Shown here piece by piece: positions 883 through 12,495 of a DNA stretch of 51,801 bases (positions are counted from its first letter, which is position 1; every line of letters starts with the position of its first letter). Both the position numbers and the translations under genes were made by a program. The notes under the pieces are model-generated. The model did no database searches. It had not been told where the DNA came from and worked only from the letters and a program-made list of their open reading frames with translations. The DNA comes from an uncultured Eubacteriales bacterium (lineage in GTDB: Bacteria; Bacillota; Clostridia; Christensenellales; Aristaeellaceae): NCBI GenBank assembly GCA_900318145.1, contig ONJM01000019.1, positions 1-51,801 on the forward strand, written 5' to 3'.

Positions 883-1110
883 CAGTCTTTCTAAAAAAAT
901 CCTTTCCTTTTGTGGATGCTAGTGTACGACGTTCCATTCTCCCTATGCGCCAGACCGGGAGACGCTTCCGGTTCCCTGCTGCCCGGATCCTTACGAAACG
1001 CATACCGATGGCACCTGGCCCTTCGGTGAGTGGGTGAAACCAGGGGAAAAAGCATAAATGCCAGGCATATAAAAAGCCGGAGAATCCTCTTGATGGACGC
1101 TTCCGGCTTT
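883..1110 (+). ncRNA. Candidate structured RNA-B, related to RNA-A at 8918
   Basis: This 359-base gap has no credible gene. From a promoter at 848-876 a transcript would run to the hairpin at 1073-1110. Its core folds as TATGCG (944-949) paired with CGCATA (999-1004), enclosing a stem-loop (955-971, CCGGGAG/CTTCCGG) and a weaker one (about 971-990). An outer helix CCATTC/GAGTGG and a short closing helix ATGCT/AGCAT (916-920/1051-1055) are possible. The segment CGCATACCGATGGCACC (999-1015) recurs with one change at 9024-9040 in RNA-A, in the same structural position. The transcript faces a convergent gene, so it is not the leader of a downstream gene. Family unknown; 6S RNA is one option because many Bacillota carry two copies, but the three-way core does not look typical of it. 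Confidence 0.5.
1073..1110. terminator. Terminator between RNA-B and the leftward secreted-protein gene
   Basis: AAAGCCGGA (1073-1081) pairs perfectly with TCCGGCTTT (1102-1110). On the minus strand it is followed by TTTTTATA, so it clearly serves the leftward gene ending at 1122. On the plus strand the T run is short, so it would be weaker for RNA-B. Confidence 0.75.
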
Positions 1111-4554: not shown

Positions 4555-5850
4555 TCATTCCTCCGGGATCAGTCGGATGATTTCCTTGAAAGGCATCAGT
4601 TCCGCGTCACATTCCTCGGCGCGGTGATTGGCCAGAATGCTTTCGGCCGCCTTCCGGATCGCCGGAACAGCGGCCCGCATCAGCTGGTTGGCGTAAATCA
4701 CAACGTTGGCGCCGCGTTCTTTCCACTCCTCCTCCTTCACGGAATTGAAGGAAGTAGGCACCAGGACAACGGGCGTCGCGGAATCCTCCGCGCGGAACGC
4801 CGCAAGGAAGTCAAAGATCTCCTGCGGATCCTTCTTCCGGCTGTGAATCATGATGGCGTCCGCGCCAGCTTTGACAAAGGCCCGGGCGCGAAGCAGCGCG
4901 TCCTCCTGCCCCCGCTCCAGAATCAGGGATTCGATCCGCGCGCAGATCATGAATTCCCGCGTACGGCGTGCCTGGCAGCCCGCGCGGATCTTTTCGCAGA
5001 AATGCTCCACCGAATCCTGGGTCTGAACCACTTCGGTACCGAAAAGACTGTTTTTCTTGAGACCGGTTTTATCCTCAATGATCACCATGGATACGCCCAT
5101 GCGTTCCAGGGATCTTACCGTATAGACAAAATGCTCTGTCAGGCCGCCGGTGTCGCCGTCAAAGATAATCGGCTTGGTGGTGACTTCCATGATATCGTCC
5201 ACCGTACGGAACCGGCTGGTCATGTCCACCAGTTCGATGTCCGGCTTGCCCTTCGCGGTGGAATCGCACAGGGAGGAAAGCCAGATCGCGTCATACTGGC
5301 GGGCGCCGCCGTTTTCATGCACCACGGTGTTTTCCACAACGAGGCCGGTCAGTCCATCATGGGCTTCCATGGCGGTAACAAGACCTTTCATCTCCAGCAG
5401 ACGGCGCAGGCGTCCTCTCCGGAAATCCGGCATGGCCAGCTCCGCGCGCTGGCGGCGGTCCAGCTCCTTATATTTTTCATCGGCGCTGTAGGGGAATTCC
5501 ACAAGCTTTCCGCCCCACGCGGAAAGCACCTCGATCACCTCGTCCCGGATGGGCTTCTGGAATCCGTTGACCCAGTTGTCCCCGTGAACGACAAAATCCG
5601 GTTTCAGCTCCTCGAGCACCTCCCGGTAGCTGAGGGTCCGCTGCTCCACCACCCGGGAAACCCCGGCGATATTCTCAAACATGATCCGCCGCTCAGAGGC
5701 GGGAACCAGCGGAAAGCGCTTGTAGCCGGCCACAGCCTCGTCGCTGAGAACGCCTACGGTCAGTTCTCCCAGCTCCTGGGCCCGGCGGATAATGGCAATA
5801 TGCCCACCGTGAATGATGTCGGTGGAAAAGCAAAGATATACTGTGGGCAT
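4555..5850 (-). CDS. aepX: Phosphoenolpyruvate mutase with N-terminal nucleotidyltransferase domain
   Basis: A 431-residue fusion. Residues 1-135 are a cytidylyltransferase-like domain with the HxGH motif HGGH (14-17). Residues 145-431 are of the PEP mutase/isocitrate lyase family: the FDGDTGG metal-binding strand (231-237) and the diagnostic EDKTGLKKNS (260-269), which matches EDK-X5-NS of true PEP mutases. PEP mutase makes phosphonopyruvate, the first step of phosphonate biosynthesis, usually drawn off by a decarboxylase (AepY) and transaminase (AepZ). Neither is present here; the neighbours are asnS and tdk. The nucleotidyltransferase part suggests that a nucleotide-activated phosphonate is made for attachment to lipid or glycan, an inference. 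The ATG at 5850 follows AGGAGGAAG. A ISSTKIR-type second motif of the transferase domain was not seen. Confidence 0.88.
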   Translation of the reverse strand: MPTVYLCFSTDIIHGGHIAIIRRAQELGELTVGVLSDEAVAGYKRFPLVPASERRIMFENIAGVSRVVEQRTLSYREVLEELKPDFVVHGDNWVNGFQKPIRDEVIEVLSAWGGKLVEFPYSADEKYKELDRRQRAELAMPDFRRGRLRRLLEMKGLVTAMEAHDGLTGLVVENTVVHENGGARQYDAIWLSSLCDSTAKGKPDIELVDMTSRFRTVDDIMEVTTKPIIFDGDTGGLTEHFVYTVRSLERMGVSMVIIEDKTGLKKNSLFGTEVVQTQDSVEHFCEKIRAGCQARRTREFMICARIESLILERGQEDALLRARAFVKAGADAIMIHSRKKDPQEIFDFLAAFRAEDSATPVVLVPTSFNSVKEEEWKERGANVVIYANQLMRAAVPAIRKAAESILANHRAEECDAELMPFKEIIRLIPEE

Positions 5851-7327: not shown

Positions 7328-8773
7328 TCACTTGCCGCCTGCCGTTCCGTATTCATAATTTCCGTTGCCGCGCCAGGGAACGCTCCAGTATCCTTCCCCG
7401 TTCTTCCGCACCCAGTCCGCCTGCTCGGAATGGCTGTTGCCTTCCGGGTCGGTAAAGGAAACGGTAAGCGGCTCATCCTGCAGAGCTTTGTAGATCCGGA
7501 GAGAAACCTGGTGTTTCGCGGGAACGGCTTTTTCCCCGTCCGCTGTATTCAGGCAGACAGAAGCGTTCACAATCTGGTTTCCGGCGTTTTCGATTTCCGC
7601 GGTAATCGTGCTGCCGGAATCATCTATTTCCTCCCGCAGCTCGTCAGCCTGCAGGGCCAGGGCCGCTTCTCTGCCTTTCGGCCGGAGTACAAGCGTATCC
7701 TTCGCGGCGGAAAGATCCGCGTTGGTGAGCGTGCAGGTATAGCGGTCTTCATCCCCCTCCACCGGTGTCAGCGTCAGGATCGTTTCCTGCTCGGGGACCG
7801 GCGTCCGGACGGTTTTCTTTTGGGGAATCGGTGTTGGATCAGGTTTCTTTTCAGGAATCGGCGTTACATCGGGTTCCGCTTCAGGTTCCGGCGTCTCGTC
7901 GGGTTCTTCCTCGGGTTCCGGTGTCACGTCGGGTTCTTCCTCGGGTTCCGGCGTCACGTCGGGTTCTTCCTCGGGTTCCGGCGTCTCGTCGGGTTCCGCT
8001 TCGGGTTCCGGTGTCTCGTCGGGTTCTTCCTCGGGTTCCGGCGTCTCGTCAGGTTCTTCCTCGGGTTCCGGTGTCACGTCGGGTTCTTCCTTGGGTTCCG
8101 GCGTCTCGTCGGGTTCTTCCTCGGGTTCCGGCGTCTCGTCGGGTTCTTCCTCGGGTTCCGGCGTCTCGTCGGGTTCTTCCTCGGGTTCCGGTGTCACGTC
8201 GGGTTCTTCCTCGGGTTCCGGCGTCTCGTCGGGTTCCTCTTCAGGTTCCGGCGTCTCGTCGGGTTCTTCCTCGGGTTCCGGCGTCTCGTCGGGTTCCTCT
8301 TCAGGTCCCGGCGTCTCGTCGGGTTCTTCCTCGGGTTCCGGCGTCTCGTCGGGTTCCTCTTCAGGTCCCGGCGTCTCGTCGGGTTCTTCCCCGGGTTCCG
8401 GTGTCAAGTCGGGTTCCTCTTCAGGGGTAAGCGTCTGCTCCGGAACCGGGTTCACCCAGCCGCACAGGACACACTGACCTTTGCGGAACACATGGCGGCA
8501 GATCTCCTCCGCGTTGTCCACGTCGCGGACAGACAGCTCCTGCCCGCAGATTTCGCAGACAACCTGCACCACAGCCCGGCCGGAAACACGGTGGTTTTCC
8601 GCGTCCAGGGGTTCATAATAGGGCGCGTCAAAATAATACAGCTCACGGGTCTGTTCATGGGCGCACACCTCGGTTGAGCCGGCGTCCTGCGTTTCTTCCT
8701 CCGCGAACACAGGAAGCGTGAGCAGAAGCAGCGCCAGCAGCATCACCGAAAGCGCCGGAATAATCCGTTTCAT
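7328..8773 (-). CDS. Secreted protein with cysteine-rich head and 10-residue acidic Pro repeats
   Basis: A 481-residue exported protein of unknown function. A signal peptide (residues 1-24) is followed by a head with CAH, CEICG, CRH and CVLCG, which could bind zinc. Then about 20 tandem copies of a 10-residue unit, most often PEPEEEPDET (roughly residues 120-320), give a long, stiff, acidic linker. The C-terminal 140 residues form a separate, soluble-looking domain (YTCTLTNADLSA..., ASVCLNTADGEK..., SVPWRGNGNYEYGTAGGK) with beta-strand patterns. The ATG at 8773 starts the signal peptide. It has its own promoter facing away from RNA-A and rny. The layout (signal, Cys-rich head, long Pro linker) matches the protein at 10774-12354 on the other side of rny, so the two may be functional relatives. 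Likely located at the cell surface. Confidence 0.8.
   Translation of the reverse strand: MKRIIPALSVMLLALLLLTLPVFAEEETQDAGSTEVCAHEQTRELYYFDAPYYEPLDAENHRVSGRAVVQVVCEICGQELSVRDVDNAEEICRHVFRKGQCVLCGWVNPVPEQTLTPEEEPDLTPEPGEEPDETPGPEEEPDETPEPEEEPDETPGPEEEPDETPEPEEEPDETPEPEEEPDETPEPEEEPDVTPEPEEEPDETPEPEEEPDETPEPEEEPDETPEPKEEPDVTPEPEEEPDETPEPEEEPDETPEPEAEPDETPEPEEEPDVTPEPEEEPDVTPEPEEEPDETPEPEAEPDVTPIPEKKPDPTPIPQKKTVRTPVPEQETILTLTPVEGDEDRYTCTLTNADLSAAKDTLVLRPKGREAALALQADELREEIDDSGSTITAEIENAGNQIVNASVCLNTADGEKAVPAKHQVSLRIYKALQDEPLTVSFTDPEGNSHSEQADWVRKNGEGYWSVPWRGNGNYEYGTAGGK
7860..8431 (-). repeat. Tandem 30-bp repeat array inside the secreted-protein gene
   Basis: About 19-20 head-to-tail copies of a 30-bp unit, with variation mainly at codons 4, 9 and 10 of each unit (for example PDET/PDVT, EEE/EAE/KEE, PEPE/PGPE). 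Period is a multiple of three, so copy changes keep the reading frame and would lengthen or shorten the linker. Confidence 0.95.
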
Positions 8774-8882: not shown

Positions 8883-8911
8883 TTGACAATTGTTACAAAA
8901 TCATGTAGCAT
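8883..8911 (+). promoter_or_regulatory. Promoter of candidate RNA-A
   Basis: Perfect TTGACA (8883-8888), a 17-base spacer and TAGCAT (8906-8911), with ATAT following. Transcription would start near 8918, at the base of the closing stem of RNA-A. Confidence 0.65.
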
Positions 8912-8917
8912 ATATTT

Positions 8918-9103
8918 GTTCGGCTGCGTGAGCATTCGCGCGCTGTGTCGATAGAGTATTCCCAAATGTACCAACGCGGGGGCTTTCTCCGCGATCTGTT
9001 TTCGGGCGTCCTTCAGGGCGAACCGCATACCGATGACACCGGGATTGCCTCGGTCGAAGCAGCGTACAGCCGTACGAAGCGTTTAGTTTCGTGCGGTTTT
9101 TTG
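8918..9103 (+). ncRNA. Candidate structured RNA-A upstream of rny, related to RNA-B
   Basis: A transcript of about 185 bases between a TTGACA promoter and an intrinsic terminator, with no credible gene inside. GTTCGGCTG (8919-8927) pairs with CAGCCGTAC (9067-9075) as a closing stem with one mismatch. Inside, TCGATAGAG pairs with CTCGGTCGA, then ATGT (8966-8969) with GCAT (9025-9028), enclosing two hairpins: CGCGG/CCGCG (8975-8993) and TTCG/CGAA (9001-9022). CGCATACCGATGACACC (9024-9040) is nearly the same as 999-1015 in RNA-B, and the paired partner changes with it (ATGT here, TATGCG there), which supports real structure. It may be a free RNA (6S RNA is the known family closest in size and gene number) or a leader controlling rny. 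Confidence 0.55.
9070..9102 (+). terminator. Intrinsic terminator after RNA-A, before rny
   Basis: CCGTACGAA (9070-9078) pairs with TTCGTGCGG (9088-9096), followed by six T. The 5' arm shares bases with the 3' strand of the RNA-A closing stem (9067-9075), so the two folds exclude each other. Confidence 0.85.
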
Positions 9104-9155: not shown

Positions 9156-10718
9156 ATGGATCCGATTGTCGCGATTGTGATTGCCCTGGCAACCCTGTGT
9201 ATCGGGCTGCTGGTGGGCTACACATACCGGAAAAACCAGACGGAACGGAAAATTGACCGTACGGAGGAATACGCAAAACGCCTGTACGACGACGCCGTCC
9301 GTAAGGCGGAAGACTACAAAAAGGAAAAAGTGCTGGAAGCCAAGGAGGAGATCCTGAAGGCCAAAGCCGAAAACGACCGGGAACGTGCGGAGAACGAAAA
9401 GGAAATCCGTGAGCGCCGCAATGAAATCCAGAAAAACGAACGTCGGCTGATTCAGCGGGAAGAAACGCTGGACCGGAAAGCCAACAACCTGGAAACCCGT
9501 GAGGAAGGGCTGAATGAGAGAGTTGCCGCCCTTGCGAAGCAGGAAGAAGAACTGGCTGAGCTGAAAACAAAGCAGCTGTCAGAACTTGAGCGGATCGCGG
9601 GCCTGACGAAGGACGAAGCGAAGCAGCTGGTCATCGACCGGGTGCAGAAGGAAGCGTACCACGACGCGGCCGCGTCCGTACGGGAAATCGAGACCCAGGC
9701 GAAGGAAGAGGGCGAAAAGAAGGCCCGGAACATTATTGCCCTGGCAATTCAGAAATGCGCGGCGGATCACGTCGCCGAAAGCACCGTCAGCGTTATCTCC
9801 CTGCCGAACGACGATATGAAGGGCCGGATCATCGGACGTGAAGGCCGGAACATCCGGGCGCTGGAAACGGCCACGGGCGTGGATCTGATTATCGACGATA
9901 CGCCGGAAGCGGTCATCGTTTCCGCTTTCGACCCGGTACGCCGGGAAGTCGCGCGCCTGGCGGTGGAAAAGCTCATTATGGACGGGCGGATTCATCCGGC
10001 GCGCATCGAGGAAATGGTGGAAAAAGCCCGGAAGGAAGTGGACAATCAGATCCGGGAAGCCGGGGAGAACGCCGTTTTCGAGACCAACCAGCACGGAATC
10101 CATCACGAACTGGTGAAGCTCCTGGGGCGGCTGCGTTTCCGGACGAGCTACGGTCAGAACGTTCTGAAGCATTCCATCGAGGTAAGCCATCTGGCAGGGC
10201 TGATGGCAGCGGAACTGGGCGCGGACGTGCAGCTGGCCAAACGCGCCGGACTGCTGCATGACATCGGAAAAGCCGTGGACCATGAAAGCGAAGGCACCCA
10301 CGTTACTCTCGGCGCTGAGCTGGCGCGGAAATACCACGAAAATAACGATGTGGTGCACTGCATCATGGCGCACCACAACGATGTGGATCCGCAGACGGTG
10401 GAAGCGGTGCTTGTGCAGGCGGCGGACGCGATTTCCGCGGCGCGGCCCGGTGCAAGGCGCGAGAGCCTGGAGAACTATATCAAGCGCCTGGAGAAACTGG
10501 AGGAAATCGCCAACAGCTTCGACGGCGTGGACAAGAGCTACGCGATTCAGTCCGGCCGCGAAGTCCGGATTATGGTGAAGCCGGAGGACGTTTCCGACGA
10601 GGGCATCAAGGTGATGGCCCGGGAAATCGCCAAACGGATCGAGGAACAGATGGAGTACCCCGGACAGATCCGGGTAAATGTCATCCGCGAAACCCGGAGT
10701 ACCGAATACGCGAAATAA
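9156..10718 (+). CDS. rny: Ribonuclease Y
   Basis: Membrane-anchored endoribonuclease that starts decay of many mRNAs in Bacillota, 520 residues as usual for the family. Residues 3-24 form the N-terminal membrane anchor. Residues 30-205 are a long charged coiled coil rich in Glu/Lys/Arg. A KH domain follows ([19 protein letters not shown], about residues 222-240). The HD domain holds HSIEVSHL and the metal-binding pair HDIGK near residues 368-369, with a further histidine pair in MAHHNDV. The ATG at 9156 follows AAAGGAGGG. There is no clear promoter between the RNA-A terminator and rny, so its transcription may come from read-through of RNA-A. It ends at a strong shared terminator. Confidence 0.97.
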
Positions 10719-10773: not shown

Positions 10774-12354
10774 CTATTTCCCGAGCATCCGCTGAAGGGG
10801 AGAAGAAGTCTCCGGTTCAGGCCAGATTCTTTCGCCGGGAACCGGTGCCTCCGCGTCGGGACTGCCTTCCAGATTCAGCCGGCGGGAAGGATAAGCCCTT
10901 GAGAAAAAGGGATACTTCTCCACATTGCGGATGACGGATTCACGGTTTTCACCGATTCCGGACGAATCCGCTCCTCCGGCAGCCGGCGCCGGCGTTGCTG
11001 TCGGTGTCCGCGTCGGAACGGATGTCGGGACCTGTGTCGGAGCAGGTGTCGGTACCTGCGTCGGAGCAGCAGTCGCAGGCGGGTTCGTTTCAGGAGGAAC
11101 CGTCGGCGGAAGCGTCTCCGGCGCAGGGGGCTGTGTGATAACCGGCGCTTTTGTCCGCGCCGGCGTCGGCGAAGGCGTAATCACAATTACCGGCGGTTCT
11201 CCGGTTTGACCGGACGGAGGATTTGTTGTGGAATCACCCGAAGGCAGAATCACCGGCAGCTCCGGTGTCGGTTCTGTAACAGGCATTTCCGTCGGCAGAA
11301 CGATCGGAGCTTCTGTCGGCGCGGCTGTCGGACCTTCCGTCGGCAGGGTCACCGGCGCCTCCGTCGGAGCCGCTGTCGGACTTTCCGTCGGCAGGGTCAC
11401 CGGCGCCTCCGTCGGAGCCGCTGTCGGACCTTCCGTCGGCAGGGTCACCGGCGCCTCCGTCGGAGCCGCTGTCGGACCTTCCGTCGGCAGGGTCACCGGC
11501 GCTTCTGTCGGAGCCGCTGTCGGACCTTCCGTCGGCAGGGTCACCGGCGCTTCCGTCGGAGCCGCTGTCGGACTTTCCGTCGGCAAGGTCACCGGCACCT
11601 CCGTCGGAGCCGCTGTCGGACTTTCCGTCGGCGGATTGGTAGGGGTATTCTTTGGTTTCTTTGTCGGCTTTTCCGTGGGCGGATCCGTAGGTGCCTTCGT
11701 CGGGACCTCCGTCGGCGGATTGGTGGGGGTATTCTTCGGTTTCTTTGTCGGCTTTTCCGTGGGCGGATCTGTAGGTGCCTTCGTCGGGACTTCCGTCGGC
11801 GGATTGGTGGGGGTATTCTTCGGTTTCTTTGTCGGCTTTTCCGTGGGCGGATCCGCAGGTGCCTTCGTCGGTGTTTCCGTCGGCGGATTGGTGGGGGTGT
11901 TCTTCGGTTTCTTCGTCGGCTTTTCCGTGGGCGGATCTGTAGGTGCCTTCGTCGGTGGATCCGTAGGCGGGTCTGTCGGCGGATTCGTAGGCGGGTCTGT
12001 GGGTGGGTTTGTCGGCGGATTCGTCGGCGGATCTGTGGGTGGGTTTGTCGGTGGATCCGTAGGCGGGTCTGTCGGGGGATCCGTAGGCGGATTCGTCGGC
12101 GGATCCGGCAGGGATCCTGTCGGGCGCCAGGACTCTGGATACTGAGCGAACTGCTGTCCGCAGCTGCGGCAGAACCAGGCGTATACCTCGCCCGGAATAC
12201 CGTCCCGCTCTTCCTGCCGGAGGACCCTTTCCTCCGGTTCCAGCACCGCATCGCAGGCGTCGCACGGGACCGGATCACTCAAAGATACCGCGGCAACGCA
12301 AAGCAGTGCGGCGCACAGCGCTGCGAAAAAACGGGTTTTTCCCCTGTTTTTCAT
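10774..12354 (-). CDS. Secreted protein with zinc-ribbon-like head and long Pro/Thr repeat region
   Basis: A 526-residue exported protein of unknown function. A signal peptide (1-24) leads to a head with CDAC and CRSC about 35 residues apart, a zinc-ribbon spacing. Then come PPTDPPT/PPTNPPT units, four copies of a 28-residue unit around EKPTKKPKNTPTNPP, and about seven copies of a 16-residue unit around GPTAAPTEAPVTLPTE. A Pro-rich stretch and a short charged tail (ENRESVIRNVEKYPFF...) close it. The second of two ATGs (12354) is chosen because GGAGG lies 7 bases upstream; for the first (12360) the gap is 1 base. It may span the cell wall or be O-glycosylated on its many Thr residues (inference). 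Its layout echoes the protein at 7328-8773. Confidence 0.8.
   Translation of the reverse strand: MKNRGKTRFFAALCAALLCVAAVSLSDPVPCDACDAVLEPEERVLRQEERDGIPGEVYAWFCRSCGQQFAQYPESWRPTGSLPDPPTNPPTDPPTDPPTDPPTNPPTDPPTNPPTNPPTDPPTNPPTDPPTDPPTKAPTDPPTEKPTKKPKNTPTNPPTETPTKAPADPPTEKPTKKPKNTPTNPPTEVPTKAPTDPPTEKPTKKPKNTPTNPPTEVPTKAPTDPPTEKPTKKPKNTPTNPPTESPTAAPTEVPVTLPTESPTAAPTEAPVTLPTEGPTAAPTEAPVTLPTEGPTAAPTEAPVTLPTEGPTAAPTEAPVTLPTESPTAAPTEAPVTLPTEGPTAAPTEAPIVLPTEMPVTEPTPELPVILPSGDSTTNPPSGQTGEPPVIVITPSPTPARTKAPVITQPPAPETLPPTVPPETNPPATAAPTQVPTPAPTQVPTSVPTRTPTATPAPAAGGADSSGIGENRESVIRNVEKYPFFSRAYPSRRLNLEGSPDAEAPVPGERIWPEPETSSPLQRMLGK
11290..12110 (-). repeat. Nested tandem repeats (84-bp, 48-bp and 12/24-bp units)
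   Basis: Three repeat classes lie end to end in the gene: about seven 48-bp units (about 11290-11630), four 84-bp units (about 11630-11960) and shorter PPTDPP units of 12 bp (about 11960-12110). All are in frame. Neighbouring copies are nearly identical at DNA level, pointing to recent slippage or unequal exchange. Confidence 0.92.
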
Positions 12355-12384
12355 GCTCATTCCTCCCCGGAATGGGTTTTCTTC

Positions 12385-12413
12385 ATTTTCCGACAGCGGG
12401 ACCGTATTGTCAA
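12385..12413 (-). promoter_or_regulatory. Promoter of the Pro/Thr repeat-protein gene
   Basis: Minus-strand TTGACA (12408-12413), 17-base spacer, weak -10 GAAAAT (12385-12390). It is back to back with the promoter at 12443-12471. Confidence 0.6.
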
Positions 12414-12442
12414 GCACAAGATATGACGTAAATCCGCTCAAG

Positions 12443-12471
12443 TTGTCACGAAATCGGCGATATGCTATAAT
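12443..12471 (+). promoter_or_regulatory. Promoter of the TPR-like/acyltransferase operon
   Basis: TTGTCA (12443-12448), 17-base spacer and perfect TATAAT (12466-12471). Start of transcription would be near 12478, just before GGAAGGAAGGG, so the leader is very short. Confidence 0.82.
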
Positions 12472-12495
12472 CACGCGGGAAGGAAGGGTGTTCCG

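Follow-up and report, generated by a model that had tools for sequence, protein, structure and literature searches.

A structured leader with an intrinsic terminator ahead of the RNase Y gene in a lineage of uncultured Clostridia, and its proposed role in transcription attenuation

Two intergenic stretches in a 51,801-nucleotide piece of DNA from an uncultured Eubacteriales bacterium, referred to here as the window, share a 17-base word (CGCATACCGATGGCACC at 999-1015 and CGCATACCGATGACACC at 9024-9040, the sole exact matches in its own genome), raising the question of whether both encode one RNA and what such an RNA would do. A preliminary description had taken the stretches, RNA-B and RNA-A, for two copies of a non-coding RNA of no matched family, and both the word and the promoter-like sites with a 17-base spacer (848-876 ahead of RNA-B, 8883-8911 ahead of RNA-A) are present where it placed them. 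Our analyses retain half of that proposal: RNA-A, with its promoter, its terminator and no Rfam family, is very probably a real, lineage-specific structured leader of rny, the gene for RNase Y, ending in an intrinsic terminator, whereas RNA-B gains no support as an RNA. In B. subtilis, and probably in many other Bacillota, mRNA decay is initiated by RNase Y, and the leader ahead of its gene is apparently unnamed.

Anatomy and conservation of the leader in the genus

The elements of the locus, with the evidence for each in brackets, are as follows.

8883..8911, + strand, promoter of the leader and rny, sigma-A type, TTGACA-17-TAGCAT (promoter-site scan)
8918..9102, + strand, RNA-A, structured 5′ leader of rny, ending in a terminator (match of 184 bits to model R1, in which the sequence itself is included; covariation in the genus)
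8921..8926, + strand, 5′ strand of the closing helix P0, CGGCTG
8927..8940, + strand, hairpin a, second arm of the three-way junction
8942..8956, + strand, 5′ arm of P1, GCTG..TCGATAGAG, holding a GATAGA that is invariant in the genus
8960..8963, + strand, 5′ arm of P2, TCCC, pairing with 9041-9044
8975..8993, + strand, hairpin b (both sides change in 5 of 6 pairs, 18 genus sequences)
9003..9025, + strand, hairpin c, whose last bases are the CCG of CCGCATA (both sides change in 6 of 9 pairs)
9024..9040, + strand, the shared word of the preliminary description, in the stretch that holds a variable insert of up to about 150 nt in other species of the genus
9041..9044, + strand, 3′ arm of P2, GGGA
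9048..9063, + strand, 3′ arm of P1, CCTCGGTCGAAGCAGC
9067..9072, + strand, 3′ strand of P0, CAGCCG, of which 9068-9072 double as the start of the terminator 5′ arm
9068..9102, + strand, intrinsic terminator with T run (terminator scan, 9068-9098; covariation across genera)
9156..10718, + strand, rny, RNase Y (profile matches to TIGR03319 and to the RNase_Y_N, KH_1 and HD domains)

We drew the structure by hand, guided by minimum-energy and consensus folds; in it P0 closes a three-way junction with hairpin a and P1, followed by P2, hairpins b and c, and the terminator, whose end lies 53 nt before the rny start codon. The folding energy of RNA-A is unremarkable (z -0.80 against shuffles). A search of Rfam, which the preliminary description had proposed, gave no match at the gathering cut-off of Rfam 15 in the window and nothing credible at E <= 10 around either interval; the three matches around RNA-A at that level are weak and implausible, and no riboswitch is among them.

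Using blastn, we found RNA-A in 22 of 36 other genomes of the genus; 24 further genomes from the order gave no match. At each of the 23 loci (its own included), rny follows directly. An alignment (A1) and the model R1 were built from 18 of these 23 leaders, the five with the longest inserts being left out. Across the 18 sequences, 90.3% of cells are paired, double changes, affecting both sides, occur in 17 of 50 pairs (in 39 cells), and the covariation score is 0.202; none of 500 shuffles reached the pair, cell, paired-percentage or score values, and two reached the pair-type measure. Versions of the structure slid along the alignment pair in 31-51% of cells, a comparison that favors the original, as it was derived from the same 18 sequences. 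A subgroup-specific extra segment of ~150 nt was observed between hairpin c and the CCGGGA stretch in five rny leaders (L016, L017, L020, L021 and L022).

The preliminary description had also proposed a covariance-model search of related genomes, which bore fruit for RNA-A: R1 matches 38 of 45 genomes of the genus (18 of the 38 having built it), and rny lies directly downstream of the match in all 38, each of which was checked, even though the search used no rny information. Additional matches adjoin or overlap the leader in three genomes (G008, G028 and G035), and a fourth genome (G015) has a second match on another contig. Seven genomes of the genus have no R1 match, and six of these show no RNase Y, while the seventh (G030) has only residues 367-520 of the protein. 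The genomes lacking an RNase Y match are G001, which is 99% complete, and G120, G034, G027, G025 and G020, at 57-87%; some of them may have lost the decay-initiating nuclease or may use another in its place.

The leader in other genera

Of 60 genomes of the family, 58 have an RNase Y match, and the stretch upstream of rny was read in 51 of the 58, G000 included (unread in G064, G070, G078, G091, G094, G096 and G099, as well as at the second RNase Y place of G109). By inspection, 24 of the 51 have the leader architecture, defined by a promoter, a CGG close to the first base, in most cases GCUGUU..GAUA, and a terminator just before rny that usually starts with CCG; besides G000 and G019, they comprise 22 genomes of 16 other genera, whose link to rny holds by construction, as their leaders were sought upstream of that gene. 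GCUGUU is present in 22 of the 24 leaders and UCGAUAGA in 8, and the position of hairpin a is taken in other genera by a hairpin of changing sequence (by inspection). The 20 genomes nearest by RNase Y all carry the leader (19 of them from other genera), and among the remaining 30 it was seen in three (G079, G082 and G103). We counted as leaders three atypical cases, namely L066, which is cut by a contig end, L106, with no clear GCUGUU, and L052, with no GAUAGA. The RNA is thus seen here in 17 genera, and Rfam 15 gives no match to it in the window.

Fixed rules broadly uphold the reading by eye, which is more generous than the strict rules: a fixed word pattern is present in 21 of the 24 called positive against 1 of the 27 called negative, a strict scan for the CCG terminator gives 16 of 24 against 1 of 27, and both together give 14 of 24 against 0 of 27. 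The model R1 is weak outside the genus: at E <= 0.001 it picks up 7 of the 60 genomes of the family, including two of the genus itself, and its matches in G061 and G064 are not near rny. A scan of the order with R1 found 6 of 200 genomes, three of which belong to the genus; the remaining three, from other families, match as fragments of 41-66 nt. A short model of the joined leader ends (R2) is weak as well, its best match outside its own sequences being L106 (28.7 bits, E 0.008, 90 loci), and it carries no claim here.

RNase Y records of this type bear the names of uncultured Clostridia of ruminant and other gut samples, such as RGIG6673 from sheep rumen. Other rny leaders in the family differ in kind. 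That of G085 (L074), which has none of the conserved words, has a promoter and a GCCGAG..CTCGGC hairpin with a T run near the ribosome site, and is possibly an independent attenuator. In the rny 5′ UTRs of L145 and L148, GTCAAAGTG..GCGTGTGC, located close to the 5′ end, is complementary to GCACACTTTTTGAC by the start codon, and the CACAC there could pair with the AAGGAGTGTG ribosome site as well; L149 is similar, and this type is perhaps a translational version of the same control. The 5′ UTR of L150 has the ribosome site common to this group and little else.

Closing helix, terminator and a model of attenuation

A folded leader that stands between a promoter and its gene and ends in a terminator probably sets the amount of RNase Y. 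As the 3′ strand of P0 overlaps the start of the terminator 5′ arm, the closing helix and the full terminator would compete. Both were examined across genera. CGG pairs with CCG in all 27 hand-anchored sequences, the next pair forms in 25, and the outer two form in 19 and 18, with pair types that include GC, UA, AU and CG. Covariation of P0 is weak to modest (15, 201, 46, 84 and 32 of 500 shuffles reach the five measures), the CGG/CCG pairs being invariant and so uninformative on this point, while that of the terminator is stronger (34 double-change cells; 0, 30, 0, 4 and 0 of 500 shuffles). The across-genera tool alignment (A2) comprises 26 of 34 segments, with L051 and L055 among those left out.

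When cut at the CCG, 31 of 33 leaders have P0 in the minimum-energy fold (L061 and L064 form none), compared with a 5′/3′ helix in 119 of 460 shuffled leaders (26%), a control made from the 23 leaders of up to 260 nt, longer ones being left out. Full-length folds of the same number of leaders, with L027 left out of the fold counts, have at least 5 terminator pairs in 32 of 33 cases. In 13 of 33, three or more P0 pairs persist alongside other pairing at the 3′ end, suggesting that competition between P0 and the terminator may be partial, and only a few bases are common to both.

A promoter-like site scoring at least 9 of 12 stands ahead of the first base at a nearly fixed distance in all 45 leaders, 22 of which had been selected by a pattern demanding a -10-like box but no -35 box. 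The terminator ends 43-93 nt before rny (53 nt in L121, where the promoter scan covered part of this stretch), and a promoter-like site between the two is present in 2 of 45 (L056 and L064). With a promoter ahead of every leader and so rarely another after the terminator, rny seems to be transcribed mostly by read-through of the terminator, and such a dependence would make the leader an attenuator in effect, whatever tunes it. The general layout of attenuator leaders is found here, with a promoter, a structured leader and an intrinsic terminator ahead of one gene on the same strand. A leader peptide looked unlikely, as long open frames lie in different phases among the six closest leaders.

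On balance, we favor a reading in which RNA-A works as a transcription attenuator of rny through P0. In the model that we infer, from its start point to the direction and signal of its switch, transcription would start near 8918 and the nascent RNA would close when its first bases, CGGCUG, pair with CAGCCG ~140 nt further on, so that P0, hairpin a and P1 form the three-way junction, with P1 carrying the variable domain. If P0 is intact as the polymerase arrives at the terminator, the terminator would be shortened and rny transcribed; if P0 is opened, the full terminator would form and a 185-nt RNA would be released. Our best guess for the signal, offered tentatively, is RNase Y itself: surplus enzyme could bind or cut the leader, free CAGCCG and halt its own synthesis. 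Such a self-sensing terminator, a fast-evolving three-way-junction leader through which RNase Y would sense its nascent mRNA and shut off transcription of its own gene, is a speculative proposal; if true, it would be the transcriptional counterpart of autoregulation by mRNA decay. If a conserved RNA meters rny by attenuation, this would reveal how decay capacity is set in these Clostridia, and the locus offers a compact system for testing whether a nuclease can control its own transcription.

Other readings of RNA-A are less well served by the same observations. A small molecule at the junction and P1 core could decide between P0 and the terminator, making RNA-A a metabolite or ion riboswitch, as the conserved internal stretches GCUGUU and UCGAUAGA and the overlap of the closing helix with the terminator would suggest; we regard this as unlikely, as the matches checked in the genus lie at rny and not ahead of transporter or enzyme genes, and no Rfam riboswitch reaches E 10. 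RNA-A could also be a stand-alone small RNA on a shared promoter, with the 185-nt RNA acting in trans (a decoy of RNase Y would be one example) and rny living on leaky termination. The strong terminator, the compact structure and the tolerance of long inserts in the genus agree with this; its presence at rny in 38 of 38 genomes of the genus, its absence where RNase Y is missing, and the overlap of a P0 strand with the terminator make it improbable.

The preliminary description held that 6S RNA must be excluded first, and for RNA-A the searches with RF00013 do so. This model finds none in 16 of 16 genomes of the genus, which leaves some room for a divergent 6S RNA. Elsewhere in the order, 8 of 10 genomes from other families match it (7 of them passing the cut-off), as do 47 of the 60 family genomes (32 passing it). 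A 6S RNA folds as one long hairpin with a central bubble. RNA-A has no RF00013 match and folds as a three-way junction, and in 17 of 22 leader genomes of other genera a 6S match passes the cut-off on a different contig from rny, so that we consider it barely credible that RNA-A is the 6S RNA of its genus. In the genus, the RF00013 results may reflect loss or strong divergence of 6S RNA.

Leaders of the riboswitch, T-box and ribosomal-protein attenuator types have a helix that competes with an intrinsic terminator. RNA-A would resemble them in the proposed competition between its closing helix and the terminator and differs in that it matches no Rfam family and is found, within the genus, at rny only. 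The rne leader of E. coli is similar in being a structured leader on the gene of a decay-initiating endonuclease; its control is post-transcriptional, whereas RNA-A has a terminator that the closing helix overlaps. RNase E autoregulation acts through a stem-loop of the rne 5′ UTR (PMC10989929). In B. subtilis, RNase Y restrains its own mRNA by cutting it, chiefly near the start of the coding region but also within the 164-nt 5′ UTR (PMC10303841). That long, sigma-A-driven 5′ UTR, which helps control the level of RNase Y, is comparable to RNA-A, but control there is by cleavage and mRNA decay, whereas RNA-A has a conserved fold and an intrinsic terminator, and the word "terminator" is absent from the main text of that paper (PMC10303841). 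Titles and the beginnings of abstracts on rny or RNase Y leaders, attenuation and autoregulation do not report this leader. Among three surveys, the words rny, ymdA, RNase and ribonuclease are absent from the main text of PMC2965389, and rny, RNase Y, ribonuclease and ymdA from those of PMC8040213 and PMC6429828.

The shared word, RNA-B and neighboring genes

The stretch that had been paired with RNA-A was examined by model, blastn, fold and terminator scans.

883..1110, + strand, "RNA-B", intergenic stretch, outside the RNA-A family and unsupported as an RNA

In a blastn self-search of the window, from which 7 of 21 matches were dropped, all inside two tandem-repeat genes, RNA-A and RNA-B match over 25 nt at 88% (32.8 bits). 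This is one of five matches in its score class, with nine scoring higher, several of which are repeats, and by this comparison the match is not above chance, equal scores not being special in the window. Compared alone, the two stretches match at E 1.5e-5, a value to be read in light of both having been picked out of the whole window. The shared word is not kept in the orthologues of RNA-A, where mainly CCGCATA or CCGTATA recurs, and R1 gives RNA-B no meaningful score with filters on or off (the best unfiltered match is 3.5 bits over 28 bases, on the opposite strand). That the two form one duplicated family can hardly be maintained on the 25-nt match, given the R1 result, the unexceptional score and the loss of the word in orthologues; RNA-B is not conserved, and RNA-A is a cis leader of rny.

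The helix proposed to join ATGT to GCAT in RNA-A fared no better, being 74.3% paired across the 18 genus sequences and gaining no support from covariation (185, 483, 169, 483 and 141 of 500 shuffles reach the five measures). A hairpin had been described at the end of both stretches, and in RNA-A it is a strong terminator (9068-9098), whereas no terminator was found at RNA-B by the scan criteria; the hairpin at ~1072-1113 may serve the convergent gene. The position of that gene had been used as an argument against a leader, and it is silent on RNA-A, a cis leader with rny downstream in 38 of 38 genomes.

Shuffled sequences fold as well as RNA-B does (z 0.72 and 0.26). Its relatives among 60 other genomes of the genus and order amount, by blastn, to one 27-nt match (G056) that lies inside apparent open reading frames. 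No match to RNA-B was found in plasmid and phage records; in viral contigs, the exact 17-mer occurs in one contig, whose similarity to RNA-B spans 18 nt. The convergent gene has matches in 39 of 45 genomes of the genus. At two of the 12 loci of this gene that were kept, the flanks were read and contain no RNA-B, and for 11 of the 12 in blastn no RNA-B match is among those listed. RNA-B has no support as an RNA and is to be dropped.

Several other genes of the window, all on the minus strand, deserve mention. Long proline-rich tandem-repeat proteins are encoded at 7331-8773, with no Pfam or NCBIfam match, and at 10774-12474. A RelB/DinJ-type antitoxin followed by a PIN-domain protein at 132-762 is likely a toxin-antitoxin pair, and the gene at 4558-5850 encodes a cytidylyltransferase-like domain fused to phosphoenolpyruvate mutase.
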